From the NCBI GenBank assembly GCA_003646505.1, contig QMKT01000028.1, positions 1-14,442 of the forward strand: a stretch of DNA of 14,442 nucleotides, read 5' to 3'. The notes beneath the pieces were generated by a model that was not told where the DNA came from, searched no databases, and worked only from the letters and a program-made list of their open reading frames with translations. Below, piece after piece: positions 1-8,430 of this stretch. The position numbers were made by a program, and so were the translations under genes. Position 1 is the stretch's first letter; each line of letters opens with the position of its first letter. This DNA comes from Campylobacterota bacterium (GTDB lineage Bacteria > Campylobacterota > Campylobacteria > Campylobacterales > Sulfurovaceae).

Positions 1-17
1 ATTCCAACATAAAACAT
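1..17 (-). CDS. IS110-family transposase, first codons only (partial)
   Basis: On the minus strand an AAGGGG Shine-Dalgarno (29-24) sits 6 nt before an ATG at 17-15, which opens a frame reading M-F-Y-V-G and then an AT-starting codon (I or M) at the edge. IS110-family transposases commonly begin MFYVGIDIAK or close variants, where the Asp belongs to the RuvC-like DEDD catalytic site. Here the frame is cut before that Asp. Five residues alone are weak evidence. The call is strengthened by the good SD and by the roughly 180-nt structured, gene-free leader, as in IS110-group elements. Another short-start protein cannot be excluded. Confidence 0.35.
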
Positions 18-23
18 AATAAA

Positions 24-200
24 CCCCTTGAGTGTTAATTTTAAAGTTCTCATAGCTTCGTGTTATACAAGGTAGAAGTTCTTACACTCCTCCTTAGCAT
101 CCTATAGATGATTTTTAAAGCTAACACAAGACGTTTTATGTGCTGGTACCAAAGTCCAAAAAGGAAAAAAACTTGTTTATTGTTAGCTTTTGTGAAAACT
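24..200 (-). ncRNA. Candidate IS110 bridge RNA (two-hairpin guide RNA)
   Basis: Read 5' to 3' on the minus strand, the leader contains two large hairpins. The first (190-117) pairs AAAGCTAAC (190-182) with GTTAGCTTT (125-117) and ACAAG (176-172) with CTTGT (130-126). It leaves an AATAA bulge (181-177) on the 5' arm and a 41-nt loop. The second (89-30) pairs GAGTGT (89-84) with ACACTC (35-30), plus an A-bulged two-pair extension. Known bridge RNAs have a target-binding loop followed by a donor-binding loop, directly upstream of the transposase start; order, size and location all agree here. The second hairpin carries CTATGAG (55-49) on its 3' side, complementary to CTCATAG at the presumed element end (205-199). 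The RNA ends are estimates. A small hairpin (TGAGT 220-216 with ACTCA 206-202) lies just upstream but probably outside the element. Confidence 0.38.
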
Positions 201-269
201 ATGAGTCTTTATTGAACTCAACCTTATTTTATCGATTTGGTTGATAAATATATTATACGAAGGAAAGTG

Positions 270-881
270 ATGAAAAAAGTAATACCGATATTAGTGGCAA
301 TGGCAGCAATAAGTAATTTGGGGTTTGCAGGTGGAGATATTGAGCCGGTAGAAGCAGTAGTGGTAGTAGAAAAAGAAGTGTATCCATTTTATGTAGGAGT
401 TGGTCTTTCTTTTGTAAGTACACGTTATTCTAGTGTTTCCTTGGGGTTTTTCGATGATAAATCTGGAGAAGATGATACTGGAGACATTTTACTTATGGCT
501 GGATATGAGTTTAACCCGTATATCGCACTGGAAGGTCGTTATATGAGCTCTTTTACTGGTGAAGATTCTCTTACCCGAGATTCATGGGGAGTTTATGTAA
601 AACCTCAATATCCGGTGAATGATAAATTTAGTGTATATGCATTATTAGGGTATGGTGGTATGACAGTTGATGGTAAAGATAATGGCCTTATACCTGTAGT
701 TGTAGATGAAAGTGGTTTTCAATGGGGCTTAGGTGCAAGTTATGACTTGAATGTACATTTTTCCATTTTTATTGATTATGTCAATATTGCAAATGATATG
801 GATACAAATATATTAGTGGGGTCAACTTTTGAAAAAGTGGATTCAGATGCACTTTCAATGGGTGTGACTTATCATTTTTAA
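270..881 (+). CDS. Outer-membrane beta-barrel protein (OmpA/OmpW-like porin fold)
   Basis: A 203-residue exported protein. The N-terminus is a Sec signal peptide (MKKVIPILVAMAAISNLGFA, probable cleavage after the LGFA Ala at about residue 20). It is followed by alternating hydrophobic/polar strands such as YVGVGLSF, ILLMAGYEF, YIALEGRY, SVYALLGYGG and FQWGLGASYDL. It ends in a C-terminal Phe (GVTYHF), the usual BAM recognition signal of outer-membrane barrels. Size and pattern fit the eight-stranded 'outer membrane protein beta-barrel' family; no peptidoglycan-binding OmpA domain follows. The ATG at 270 is chosen because AAGGA (260-264) precedes it by 5 nt and the signal peptide starts there; the frame stays open upstream to a TTG at 237, which lacks these supports. 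A presumed IS110 end lies about 65 nt upstream, so its promoter may have been displaced or replaced. The ligand or cargo is unknown. Confidence 0.85.
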   Translation: MKKVIPILVAMAAISNLGFAGGDIEPVEAVVVVEKEVYPFYVGVGLSFVSTRYSSVSLGFFDDKSGEDDTGDILLMAGYEFNPYIALEGRYMSSFTGEDSLTRDSWGVYVKPQYPVNDKFSVYALLGYGGMTVDGKDNGLIPVVVDESGFQWGLGASYDLNVHFSIFIDYVNIANDMDTNILVGSTFEKVDSDALSMGVTYHF

Positions 882-4367: not shown

Positions 4368-5843
4368 ATGATTAGTTGGATGCAAAAACACAATAAGTAT
4401 CTTGTATGGACAATATGGGTAGCAACCATCGCATTTATTGGTGCAGGTTTTGTAGGATGGGGAAGTTACAGCTTTGGTTCCAAAGCAGGTAATGTAGCCA
4501 AAGTGGGTGACATTGAGATCACACAGACAAAACTCAACATGGTTTACAGTAATGTGTATAACCAATATAATGAAGCACTACAAGGTAAACTTGATGATAA
4601 GAAAGCCAAAGAAATGGGTCTTATAAAACAAGCATTTGCACAATTGGAAACACAGGCTAAGATCCTCAATTTTTCAAAAGAACTTGGTATTGTTGTCTCA
4701 GATGCAGAGATCGTAAATAGATTACAAAGTATCAAGTCATTTCAAAAAGACGGGGTCTTCAATAAAGAAATCTATAATGGATACCTTAGAGCACAAAGAC
4801 TTAAAGCAAATGTATTTGAAGATACACTGAGAGAAGAACTAGTCATTCAAAAAACCATTGCATTACTCAATGTAGATGCTTTACCTTTTGAAAAAGAAGC
4901 AATCGCTGCGGGTATGAATGTAAGTGATAAGTTAGCCTATAAAGTATTGACACAAGATGATCTTGATTTTGTACCGGATGAAGCTAAAATGAAAGCATTC
5001 TGGGAAGCAGAAAAAGATACATTCCTAACAGACAAAATGCTTACGCTTTCTGTTGTTTGGACTCAAAGCAACGATACAGTGGTCACAGAAGATGAGATAA
5101 AAGCACATTACGACACAAACAGTTTTAATTATACCAATGAAACAGGGAAACAACTCACTTTTGAAGAAGCTAAAGCTTTGGCTGAAAAAGATTTAAAACT
5201 GAAAAAAACAAAAAAGACAGCGCAGAAAGCCTATATCGCATTCAAAAAAGGAAAGCTTGACAGCAGTGAAAAAATAACACTTCCTTTCGGTGATACTACA
5301 CTCTCAAATGACCTATGGAATACAGTCAAGGAAAAATCTGTGGGAGATATACTTAAACCAAAAGTCGTAGCAGATAAATATGCAACAGTCAAAATAGAAA
5401 ATATAGTCTTACCACAAATAAAAACATATGAAGATGCCAAAGAAGAAGTAAGTGTACTTTATGCAACACAAGCAAAAAAAGAAGCACTTCTTGCATCGGC
5501 AGAGTTAACACTCAAAAATTTTGATCAAAGTGATGCGATTGTATCAGATTTCCTGAAGTTAGAAGAAGGTGTCAACCTAAAACCATTAAATAATCAAGAA
5601 AGTTTACAATTTTTACAAAAACTCTTTACATCCTCAAAAGAAAAGGGTATTATAAGCGTATCAAATAAAGTCGTGGTTTACAACATATTGGAACAAAGGC
5701 TTCAGTCGATGGATGAAAACCAGACAAATTTTGTAAACCAAACTGTCAGTAAATTAAAACAAAGTACATTTGAATCAAACCTGATAAAAATGTTACATAA
5801 AAAATATCCAACAGAAGTCTATATGGGAGGGCTTACAAATTGA
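4368..5843 (+). CDS. PpiD/SurA-N-type periplasmic chaperone, membrane anchored
   Basis: A 491-residue protein with one N-terminal membrane anchor (about residues 12-34, within LVWTIWVATIAFIGAGFVGW) and a periplasmic body. Residues 35-190 match the SurA_N/PpiD chaperone region: KVGDIEITQTKLNMVYSNVY, LIKQAFAQLETQAKILNFSK, GIVVSDAEIVNRLQS and FNKEIYNGYLRAQRL. PpiD-class proteins help outer-membrane and secreted proteins fold as they leave Sec. The middle (about 200-380) has some parvulin-like edges (ITLPFGDTTLSNDLW, YATVKIENIVLPQIKTYEDA), but I cannot find the catalytic parvulin core, so isomerase activity is doubtful. This is common for the family, and E. coli PpiD, at about 620 aa, is longer. 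It overlaps ftsA by 4 nt, which suggests translational coupling with cell-division genes. The same order is recalled from Helicobacter and Campylobacter. Confidence 0.85.
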   Translation: MISWMQKHNKYLVWTIWVATIAFIGAGFVGWGSYSFGSKAGNVAKVGDIEITQTKLNMVYSNVYNQYNEALQGKLDDKKAKEMGLIKQAFAQLETQAKILNFSKELGIVVSDAEIVNRLQSIKSFQKDGVFNKEIYNGYLRAQRLKANVFEDTLREELVIQKTIALLNVDALPFEKEAIAAGMNVSDKLAYKVLTQDDLDFVPDEAKMKAFWEAEKDTFLTDKMLTLSVVWTQSNDTVVTEDEIKAHYDTNSFNYTNETGKQLTFEEAKALAEKDLKLKKTKKTAQKAYIAFKKGKLDSSEKITLPFGDTTLSNDLWNTVKEKSVGDILKPKVVADKYATVKIENIVLPQIKTYEDAKEEVSVLYATQAKKEALLASAELTLKNFDQSDAIVSDFLKLEEGVNLKPLNNQESLQFLQKLFTSSKEKGIISVSNKVVVYNILEQRLQSMDENQTNFVNQTVSKLKQSTFESNLIKMLHKKYPTEVYMGGLTN

Positions 5844-7237
5844 GTGACACAATTTTAGCTATTGATATCGGTTCCACTAAAATATGTGCCCTCATCGCAG
5901 AGGTTGAAGACTCCAAAGTTACGCTGCAAGGTCATGGTATCACTAAATCCCAAGGGATTAAAAAAGGTGCCATCACCAATATAGAACTTGCCTCAAAATC
6001 CATCAAAAAATCCATTAATGATGCGAAACGTATTGCAGGGAGTAATATTACTTCTGCCACTGTTTCTATCTCTAATGCTTATGCAAAAAGTCTGAACTCT
6101 ACTGGTATTGTCAACATACCACATAAAGATATCTCTATCAAAGAGATAAACCGTGTCATGCAAACTGCGCTTTACAATGCAAATGTTCCCAATGAGTATG
6201 AAGTGGTCCACGTCCTTCCTTATAACTTTAGAGTAGATGACCAGGATTTCATAGAAGATCCATTTGGTATGAATGCCTCTCGACTTGAAGTTGATGTCAA
6301 CATTATCATGACACAAAAATCAAATCTTTCAAATCTTAAAAAAGCCGTTCGTTCTGCAGGTGTAGATATAAACGGTATTGTTCTTAGCGGGTATGCCTCA
6401 GCTATTGCTACTATGAGTGAGGATGAAAAAGAACTTGGTGTTGCCGTCATCGATCTTGGAGGACAGACATCCAACCTTGTCATTCATACAGGTAACTCTA
6501 TCAGATACAATGATTTCCTAGGTGTAGGATCAAATCACATTACCAATGATTTATCTATGGCTCTGCATACTCCTTTGCAGATAGCTGAAAATGTAAAAAT
6601 ACGTCATGCCAACTTAGTGGAAACCAGTAATGAGATGATTGAACTACCTATTATAGGTGATGAAGAGAGTAGAAATGAAGTCTCTTTGGAGATCGTACAT
6701 TCTGTTATTTTCTCACGTGTTGAAGAAGCACTGATGATCCTCTCCAAGTCTGTAGACAAATCCGCACTCAAAGAACAAATAGGTGCAGGACTTATCCTTA
6801 CAGGAGGTATGACAAAACTCAAGGGTATCAGAGAATTAGCACAGGCCATTTTCTCTGGTATGCCTGTACGAGTAGCTTACCCGCATAATGTAAATGGGCT
6901 TTTTGAAGAATTAAAAGACCCTGCTTATGCTACAGTCATTGGTTTATTGCTTTACAATGCCGGTGAACATACACAATATGAGATCAATTTTCAGCAAGAA
7001 TTGTTACACTCAAAAGAAGAACACAAGGATGACCTGACAAATATCAAGATAGGTCATACTTCTAACGATACGGAAGAGAAAGCAGAAACGAAAAGTCAAA
7101 AAACTGCCAAAGACAGTAAATCGTCAAAAGATACTATAGAAGAGACAAGTATCACATTTGACGATTTACCGGATCTAGGTCATGAAAACAAAAATCCTAT
7201 TAAAAAGCTAGCCAATTGGGCAAGGCAGCTTTTTTAA
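5840..7237 (+). CDS. ftsA: Cell division protein FtsA
   Basis: An actin-like ATPase that tethers FtsZ filaments to the inner membrane and recruits later divisome proteins. Of 465 residues, the nucleotide-site motifs are LAIDIGSTKICALIAEVED (phosphate 1, 6-24), AVIDLGGQTSNLVIH (phosphate 2, 202-216) and GLILTGGMTKLKGI (adenosine, 317-330). The FtsA-specific 1C domain lies around 85-165 (FRVDDQDFIEDPFGMNASRL). Residues about 385-450 form a charged, variable linker. The extreme C-terminus, NPIKKLANWARQLF, is the amphipathic membrane-targeting helix. The start is TTG at 5840, overlapping the upstream TGA (TTGA) and preceded by GGGAGGG (5825-5831) at 8 nt, a very strong SD that compensates for the weak start codon. 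A terminator-like hairpin covers its final codons, upstream of ftsZ. Confidence 0.97.
   Translation: MSDTILAIDIGSTKICALIAEVEDSKVTLQGHGITKSQGIKKGAITNIELASKSIKKSINDAKRIAGSNITSATVSISNAYAKSLNSTGIVNIPHKDISIKEINRVMQTALYNANVPNEYEVVHVLPYNFRVDDQDFIEDPFGMNASRLEVDVNIIMTQKSNLSNLKKAVRSAGVDINGIVLSGYASAIATMSEDEKELGVAVIDLGGQTSNLVIHTGNSIRYNDFLGVGSNHITNDLSMALHTPLQIAENVKIRHANLVETSNEMIELPIIGDEESRNEVSLEIVHSVIFSRVEEALMILSKSVDKSALKEQIGAGLILTGGMTKLKGIRELAQAIFSGMPVRVAYPHNVNGLFEELKDPAYATVIGLLLYNAGEHTQYEINFQQELLHSKEEHKDDLTNIKIGHTSNDTEEKAETKSQKTAKDSKSSKDTIEETSITFDDLPDLGHENKNPIKKLANWARQLF
7202..7235 (+). terminator. Terminator-like hairpin within the last codons of ftsA (possible attenuator)
   Basis: AAAAAGCT (7202-7209), bulged A, GCC (7211-7213), loop AATTGGGCAA (7214-7223), GGC (7224-7226), AGCTTTTT (7227-7234). 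This makes an 11-pair stem with one bulge, ending in a run of six T (7230-7235) that continues into the ftsA stop TAA. It has the form of a Rho-independent terminator but overlaps coding sequence, so ribosomes finishing ftsA would block it. It may set the ftsZ:ftsA transcript ratio. Confidence 0.45.
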
Positions 7238-7272
7238 TCGATTTCACATACAACACAAAAAGGGAGGAAAAA

Positions 7273-8430
7273 ATGGAAGAGTTTGAAATAGACATTATTG
7301 AAACAAAGTGTCACACTAATGGGGCAAAAATAAAAGCTATCGGTGTCGGCGGTGGTGGCGGAAACATGATTAATCATATGATAACTGAGGGTATCAATAG
7401 TATTGATCTAATTGTTGCCAATACTGATGCACAGGCATTAGATTCTTCACTTGCACCATTTAAGATGCAACTTGGAATGAACGCAACTAGAGGTTTGGGT
7501 GCGGGAATGGTTCCAGACAAAGGTAGAGAAGCTGCACTTGAAAGTTTTGAAGACATCAAAGCAATGCTGGAGGGTTCAGACATCGTCTTTATCTCTGCAG
7601 GTCTTGGCGGGGGTACTGGTACCGGTGCTGCACCTATCATTGCTCAAGCTGCAAAAGAGGTAGGTGCACTTACTGTTTCTATCGTTACAAGTCCTTTTAA
7701 ATTTGAAGGTCGTAAAAGAACGAAACTTGCAAAAGAAGGTTTGGAAGAACTCAAACGTGAGAGTGATTCTATCATTGTTGTTCCTAACGAAAAACTTCTT
7801 TCTATTGTTGAAAAGAACCTTGGGATCAAAGAGAGTTTTAGAATGGTAGATGACATTCTCGCTCAAGCTGTTGGTGGTATTTCAAAAGTGATCCTTTCAC
7901 ATGGTGACAATGACATAAACCTTGACTTTGCCGATGTAAAAACAGTGATGAACCATAGAGGTTTAGCACTGATGGGTACAGGATACAGTTCTGGTGCTGC
8001 TGCAGCTTATGATGCGGCAAAAATGGCTATCGAGTCACCACTACTTGATAACATCTCCATTGATGGTGCTATGGGTGTACTTGTTCAGTTTGACATACAT
8101 CCAGACTACCCACTTAACGGTATTTCCGAAGCGATGGAAATCATCTATGAGAGTGCAGATGAAGATGCGGATGTTATTTTTGGTACCACAACAAATGAGT
8201 CTATGGAAATTGATGAAGTTAGAATTACAATCGTTGCTACTGGTTTTGAAGATAAAAATGCTATTCCTGCTCCAACAGAGAAAAAACAGGAAACACTTTT
8301 AAACACTAGTGCCAACTCTTGTAATATCAATACCCTTAGATCTGCAAACAAAATGGTTGTAGGTGGATACAATGGCGATAATGAAGATATTTTAGATGTA
8401 CCAACTTTTCTAAGAAAGCAAATGGATTAG
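7273..8430 (+). CDS. ftsZ: Cell division protein FtsZ
   Basis: The tubulin-like GTPase that polymerises into the Z-ring at midcell and organises septal wall synthesis. Of 385 residues, the nucleotide fold starts at KIKAIGVGGGGGNMINHMI (19-37), the tubulin signature GGGTGTGA is at 112-119, and the T7 synergy loop is NLDFADVKTVM (216-226; Asp218 and Asp221 complete the GTPase site of the next subunit). The C-terminal domain runs to about 330, then a short linker (about 330-370) leads to the conserved tail peptide LDVPTFLRKQ (374-383), the FtsA-binding motif. The ATG at 7273 is chosen over the in-frame upstream start at 7216 because GGGAGG (7262-7267) lies 5 nt before it and the upstream extension overlaps ftsA. 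It is the last gene of the operon, with a strong terminator 53 nt after the stop. Confidence 0.98.
   Translation: MEEFEIDIIETKCHTNGAKIKAIGVGGGGGNMINHMITEGINSIDLIVANTDAQALDSSLAPFKMQLGMNATRGLGAGMVPDKGREAALESFEDIKAMLEGSDIVFISAGLGGGTGTGAAPIIAQAAKEVGALTVSIVTSPFKFEGRKRTKLAKEGLEELKRESDSIIVVPNEKLLSIVEKNLGIKESFRMVDDILAQAVGGISKVILSHGDNDINLDFADVKTVMNHRGLALMGTGYSSGAAAAYDAAKMAIESPLLDNISIDGAMGVLVQFDIHPDYPLNGISEAMEIIYESADEDADVIFGTTTNESMEIDEVRITIVATGFEDKNAIPAPTEKKQETLLNTSANSCNINTLRSANKMVVGGYNGDNEDILDVPTFLRKQMD

Follow-up and report, generated by a model that had tools for sequence, protein, structure and literature searches.

IS900 of M. avium subsp. paratuberculosis reportedly seeks out the start sites of genes, going by the title of a 1997 paper by Doran. 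The element belongs to the IS110 family, and its target motif CATGNNNNNNTCTCCTT combines a start codon with a Shine-Dalgarno sequence on the complementary strand, as given in the part of PMC8141618 at hand; in view of this motif and that title, there is precedent for start-site targeting among IS110 elements. How does such an element find the start of a gene? The same part of PMC8141618 describes the targeting with no bridge RNA explanation. Bridge RNAs are carried in the left end by IS621 and the IS110 group and in the right end by the IS1111 group (PMC11208160, PMC11208158, PMC11187229, as far as the available portions of these papers go). Here we describe a locus at the edge of a Campylobacterota contig. 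The window, that is, the whole stretch analysed (14,442 nucleotides), is the entire contig C28 of a draft genome of 142 contigs (G000). Its positions 259 to 1, read on the minus strand, are probably the left end of an IS110-type element of about 1.64 kb with a proposed bridge RNA cycle directed to Shine-Dalgarno sequences; the family (in relatives), the ends, the core, the covariation of the RNA and the location at gene starts are the observations on which this reading is built.

Family, ends and copies of the element

Because the window is the whole contig, only five transposase codons are visible, ATG TTT TAT GTT GGA at 17 to 3 on the minus strand, and the frame is truncated at position 1 (Table 1). 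The sequence-only reading had seen in this short peptide and in the Shine-Dalgarno sequence upstream of it the opening of an IS110 transposase, and both can be read directly. Can five codons place a protein in a family? No IS110 protein was found anywhere in the G000 assembly (80% complete), so the family status rests on relatives. In the relative L002 the homologous leader and start run into an intact IS110 transposase of 403 aa, which bears out the family membership by proxy: by sequence comparison it is established in relatives, not for the window's own copy. The L002 protein scores 95.4 bits with PF01548 (cut-off 29) and, at its C-terminus, 73.6 bits with Transposase_20 (PF02371, cut-off 21.3), including the catalytic serine. 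Relatives with solved structures are the transposases of IS621 and ISCro4. SGNS of L002 aligns to SGSS of IS621, whose first serine we counted as S241, and the DEDD acidic stretches GID, VEST and NDAIDA align to GID, IEAT and TDTVDA; the serine residue and the roles of the DEDD residues in IS621 are taken from the available part of PMC11208158. Elsewhere in the window ftsA and ftsZ are adjacent at 5840-8430, with no relation to the element.

Whole or in part, the 205-nt leader was matched in 11 of the 175 genomes of the bacterial family, the window's own genome counted, where a second match (42 nt) lies at the end of contig C55. The leader is therefore not a chance sequence, and the conservation among copies and relatives on which the sequence-only reading depended is there. 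That reading had let the left end extend over 1 to 205, but comparison of flanks between copies places the real end at 259, where CG (259-258), followed by TATAAT, is common to the copies and the host DNA past the core is variable. The stretch 206-259 is common to other copies as well and holds a 5' stem-loop and the TATAAT box. In clade A the right boundary comes after TTTATAGGATGG, directly followed by the core TT. This core was found at 30 of 31 clade A left junctions, the exception being L012 with CT, and CT is the core of clade B; in each of these two clades the same dinucleotide stands at both element ends. The L002 element comprises 1,638 bases including one core. Its left end is longer than its right end (243 versus about 181), as in G277 (327 versus about 275), and the right end measures 179-325 nt in 13 of 18 elements, those in which its start was found.

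Some copies deserve a separate word. The search that gave the right end in the window's own genome, on contig C131, returned 18 matches, among which L030-L033 are chance matches and were left unused. A right end on contig C8 of G008 was considered as the partner of a left end before murE and does not look matching. One clade A element, L071, comes from a 3.3-kb contig that carries the label Flavobacteriales, which likely reflects a binning error or a transfer. The 2.0-Mb genome G277 holds 14 copies with identical transposase matches (L159, L168, L172, L175, L177, L179 and L181-L188), and two of them, L186 and L187, are about 1.3 kb apart.

Table 1. Features of the locus in window coordinates, with the basis of each assignment
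Feature	Position	Strand	Basis
MFYVG, first five IS110 transposase codons plus two bases	1..17	-	sequence; homologous start in L002
Left non-coding end (LE) of the element	18..259	-	comparison of insertion sites
Transposase Shine-Dalgarno AAGGGG	24..29	-	sequence
Predicted RNA, match of covariance model R2	48..207	-	177.8 bits, E 1.9e-38; covariation
Closing stem, 3' arm; innermost pairs overlap right donor guide	49..59	-	helix 1
Predicted right donor guide CGAA	57..60	-	tracks core and left end, four types
Stem-loop inside donor module	69..95	-	helix 6
Predicted left donor guide, within CTATAGGATGCTA	95..107	-	11/14 identities with right end; tracks ends across five types
Target-binding loop hairpin	117..190	-	helices 2-4
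Predicted right target guide AUAAAA	134..139	-	position by IS621 analogy
Predicted left target guide UUUUUCCUU	161..169	-	between helices 3 and 4, as in IS621
Closing stem, 5' arm, around target loop	195..205	-	helix 1
5' stem-loop CAACC...GGTTG of predicted bridge RNA	219..243	-	A1 consensus fold
TATAAT box reading inward, -10 half of predicted split promoter	252..257	-	invariant in 11 A1 leaders
Core dinucleotide TT, host side of left junction	260..261	-	TT after GGATGG at 13 aligned clade A right junctions
Shine-Dalgarno AAGGA of host gene, left target, intact after insertion	260..264	+	flank comparison; start-site count
Host gene beside insertion, outer membrane beta-barrel protein	270..881	+	PF13505, 61.1 bits

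Insertion at gene starts

What lies on the host side of the left junction? The target, which the sequence-only reading overlooked, is on this side a Shine-Dalgarno sequence: beyond the core most copies have AAGGA or AGGA and then a start codon. Counted over 63 distinct left junctions (31 from clade A, 28 from clade B and 4 from clade C), a frame of 40 codons or more begins with an ATG 9-13 nt from the core in 53, an insertion at the Shine-Dalgarno sequence before the start codon as in IS900, and with any start codon in 56; this position is occupied by 2.0-3.6% of TT or CT dinucleotides in the background (300 kb). The junctions with no such reading frame and start are L004, L008, L013, L016, L018, L176 and L183; L008, L016 and L018 have the ATG of a shorter frame, and the GTG at L013 was treated as a coincidence. 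Two G544 copies with one common flank were counted once. Excluded from the 63 are L190 and L195 (too little flank), L081 and L014 (left boundary absent), and L011 and L090-L092, which the pattern missed and all four of which have an ATG. The start-site pattern fits 7 of 7 clade C sites and, in the one-contig genome G277, 13 of the 14 copies. Of note, these seven clade C sites, L086-L092, belong to a more distant IS110 clade (28-29% identity) with a different leader, and the insertions stand at AGGAG before starts.

The genes behind the insertions include those for MurE, enolase, IMP dehydrogenase, dephospho-CoA kinase and adenylate kinase, each above the NCBIfam cut-off. The element sits before murE in G008, and at the corresponding place, 11-12 nt before the start, all 10 insertion-free murE orthologues examined read AAGG.

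The predicted bridge RNA

The covariance model R2, trained on 13 leaders with the window excluded, finds an RNA of about 160 nt in the left end. Since these training leaders are close in sequence to the window, the match mainly shows conservation. How far does the model reach? Clade B is the more informative case. Its transposases are 42-49% identical to that of L002 where measured (the G542 protein, measured against G277 alone, gave 50%), and across 10 clade B loci four leaders were matched over the full model with E < 0.01 (L162, L192, L079 and L161), two weakly (L077, E 0.47; L160, E 3.4) and the remaining four not at all. Among three clade C loci L090 alone was listed, at E 4.5, and the best background E in seven 20-kb stretches was 2.2. 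A search of Rfam gave no family match, its two listed entries (E 0.73 and 0.82) being far below their gathering scores.

Further evidence comes from covariation, which the sequence-only reading had made a test of its stems. In an alignment of 18 sequences (the window, the 13 training leaders and four from clade B), 28 of the 44 base pairs are changed on both sides, versus 10.5 +/- 2.2 after shuffling and at most 7 when the structure is slid; the alignment is model-fitted, which favours covariation. The left end thus holds two modules with covarying stems. Of the two hairpins drawn in the sequence-only reading, the one at 190-117 is the target-binding loop and folds better than its shuffles (z -2.38, 6 of 200 as good), as does the whole stretch 240-20 on the minus strand (z -2.71, 2 of 200). 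The hairpin at 89-30 as drawn does not (z -0.48, 56 of 200 as good), and it was rejected as the donor loop. The conserved helices lie elsewhere, in a closing stem that joins 205-195 with 59-49 (4 of 11 pairs changed on both sides) and in a hairpin that joins 95-88 with 77-69 (helix 6, 8 of 8). As the closing stem encloses the target hairpin together with the donor guides, the donor part is a multiloop; the proposed order, target loop before donor part, was right. The 5' stem-loop has no pair with a counted double change, and a CAATCA/TGATTG version in L006 was noticed by eye.

Could the right end encode a second RNA? This candidate was rejected, as no pair with double changes was present in 8 clade A right ends. 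The stretch CTCATAGTTTTCACAAAAGCTAA of the left end belongs to the RNA and recurs, inverted and imperfectly, in clade A right ends (e.g. L002:2657-2700); a right-end transcript could pair with the bridge RNA.

Predicted target and donor guides

In a register set by the core, UUUUUCCUU, the predicted left target guide, complements a Shine-Dalgarno sequence with an A-rich spacer. G277, with its many copies, offers the clearest comparison: with the register again set by the core, the consensus of its 14 targets, TTTTTTCCT, agrees with the guide of this genome at 9 of 9 positions, and the single targets match at 3-6 of the 7 non-core positions. Is the start codon read as well? In G277 the ATG lies at offsets from 10 to 12, and the CA of CAU is apparently in a stem, so the start codon was discarded as a part of the guide. 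The predicted right target guide is followed by CG at 133-132, possible handshake bases; its pairing beyond the core is weak, and the G277 right flanks match their guide at 1-4 of 6 positions.

For the donor side, position and the analogy with IS621 suggest AGGAUGCU at 103-96 as the left guide. CGAA, the right guide, is predicted to pair with the core TT and the CG of the left end, and GC at 56-55 may be its handshake bases. Across types, the element ends GGATGG, AAAAGG, GGATTG, AAACGG and GGAAGG pair off with GGAUGC, AAAAGC, GGAUGC, AAACGC and GGAAGC in the RNA, with the end base that adjoins the core a mismatch in 5 of 5; one G677 copy has GGATTC in place of GGATTG. The combinations of core and left end TTCG, CTCG, CTCC and TTTA likewise pair off with the guides CGAA, CGAG, GGAG and CAAA. 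When each type is paired with its own guide, the left donor side gives 24 matches of 30, which 2 of 120 permutations equal, and the right donor side 15 of 16, which 1 of 24 permutations equals; the types were picked by eye, and with that proviso the permutations point to guides complementary to the donor ends. Shuffling of single sequences sets the donor match apart in clade A, where 35 of 2000 shuffles do as well for the window and 53 for L006; in clade B, with 758 to 1882 of 2000, it does not, so the donor case rests on covariation.

What sets the precision of insertion

Does the guide by itself take the element to gene starts? As the sole cause it was ruled out: 41 of 737 background CT sites with at least five guide matches are at starts, and because of this low share and the partial matches at single sites the guide alone cannot explain the pattern in G277. 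A 16-nt motif built from the sites does better, with 9 of its top 20 background matches at starts compared with 2.5% of all CT sites, and sequence preference therefore explains part of the precision. Probably the loss of harmful insertions through selection, or another factor, adds the rest. One could go further and regard the element as an ordinary IS110 member whose guide weakly prefers T-rich CCT or CCTT, the start pattern being mere survivorship, in which insertions within genes disappear whereas positions right in front of a Shine-Dalgarno sequence tolerate them. The mostly off-start background does show that something beyond the guide acts, and the motif together with the loss of harmful insertions might suffice. 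However, insertions at non-essential genes and at other intergenic sites should survive too, yet the great majority of junctions keep to the narrow distance before an ATG given above, and among non-coding sites with at least five guide matches 17 of 75 are at starts. We therefore hold survivorship as the whole account to be unlikely, though it is the strongest of the alternatives.

A different doubt concerns the window's own copy, which might be a dead remnant in a genome with no active system. In the relatives L008 and L011 left-end fragments occur without the rest of the leader, as does a partial one in L014, and the failure to find a transposase in the incomplete assembly would fit as well. 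On the other hand, the left end in G000 is on C28 and C55 and the right end on C131, and all three contigs break off within the element, which is what an intact repeat would give if the assembler failed to resolve it; a dead remnant seems to us improbable. That something besides the guide directs insertion, for instance contacts made by the protein or DNA that is open at transcribed starts, with the CCUU of the loop incidental, is very unlikely, for although three G277 sites with a poor Shine-Dalgarno sequence (AGTGAA, AGTTAA and AGAGAA) are still 10-12 nt before an ATG, the guide has a helix on either side, like its IS621 counterpart, and reads the same as the target consensus.

A proposed cycle

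How would a Shine-Dalgarno-directed bridge RNA cycle run? The recombinase would excise the element as a circle, at whose right-left junction a Campylobacter-type -35 element, TTTAAG, from the right end would be joined to the TATAAT of the left end. A -35-like TTTAAG is present in the right end at 48 of 58 distinct right junctions. In C. jejuni the -35 element is TTTAAGTnTT with a spacing of 19 in that promoter (from the available part of PMC3824568), and in the circle the ten-base -35 region is predicted to lie 18 nt from TATAAT. By analogy with what is described for IS110 circles, a promoter split across the circle junction may thus be proposed; inspection of the left end by eye established no outward promoter. 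The junction promoter would drive expression of the bridge RNA and the transposase, the recombinase would presumably bind the RNA, and the donor guides AGGAUGCU and CGAA would pair with the junction. Pairing of the left target guide with the Shine-Dalgarno sequence would have the orientation of that between the tail of 16S rRNA and mRNA, so that the circle would integrate at the TT opposite AAGGA. The gene would keep its Shine-Dalgarno sequence and start codon and might continue to be expressed.

Why would a guide resemble the tail of 16S rRNA? We put forward tentatively, and with slightly less than even confidence, that the guide imitates the near-universal anti-Shine-Dalgarno sequence, that the same trick explains IS900, and that it arose or persisted in several IS110 lineages. 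If this is true, the element could insert itself upstream of nearly every gene, always in one orientation and with the gene unbroken. A guide for a short motif that precedes very many genes would show RNA-guided recombinases trading specificity for safe sites. It would also give a testable account, at the level of RNA, of the start-site targeting by IS110 elements that is known for IS900 without a mechanism in the part of the literature at hand.

Comparison with known systems

Among the matches listed in a search of the IS110, IS900 and bridge RNA literature, titles and abstract openings contained no bridge-RNA targeting of Shine-Dalgarno or start sites, and the term 'Shine-Dalgarno' is absent from PMC11208160, PMC11187229 and PMC11208158. 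With IS1111 elements, as described in the available parts of PMC11208160 and PMC11187229, the locus shares the length of the right end, donor guides in a multiloop, reported for many IS1111s, and a repeat inverted between the ends, which here may not be the subterminal repeat of IS1111. It differs in that the guides and the covarying RNA belong to the left end, an IS110-type trait, eight right ends of clade A having given no covarying pair.

The closest match is with IS621 and the IS110 group (available parts of PMC11208160 and PMC11208158): a DEDD and Tnp20 recombinase, a bridge RNA in the left end, a 5' stem-loop followed by the target loop and then the donor guides, guides that include the core and, as predicted here, a promoter split over the circle junction. 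In contrast, the core of IS621 is CT and that of clade A is TT, the donor loop of IS621 is a hairpin of its own whereas here the donor guides lie in a multiloop with the closing stem around the target loop, and the non-coding right end is 179 nt or more. With its TT core and a donor part that wraps around the target loop, the locus is a candidate for a naturally occurring bridge system. IS621 targets REP; IS900, like the present element a member of the IS110 family, targets a motif of start codon and Shine-Dalgarno sequence (PMC8141618, in the part available). What appears to be new here is that the left target is the Shine-Dalgarno sequence and that the predicted guide, UUUUUCCUU, is its complement.
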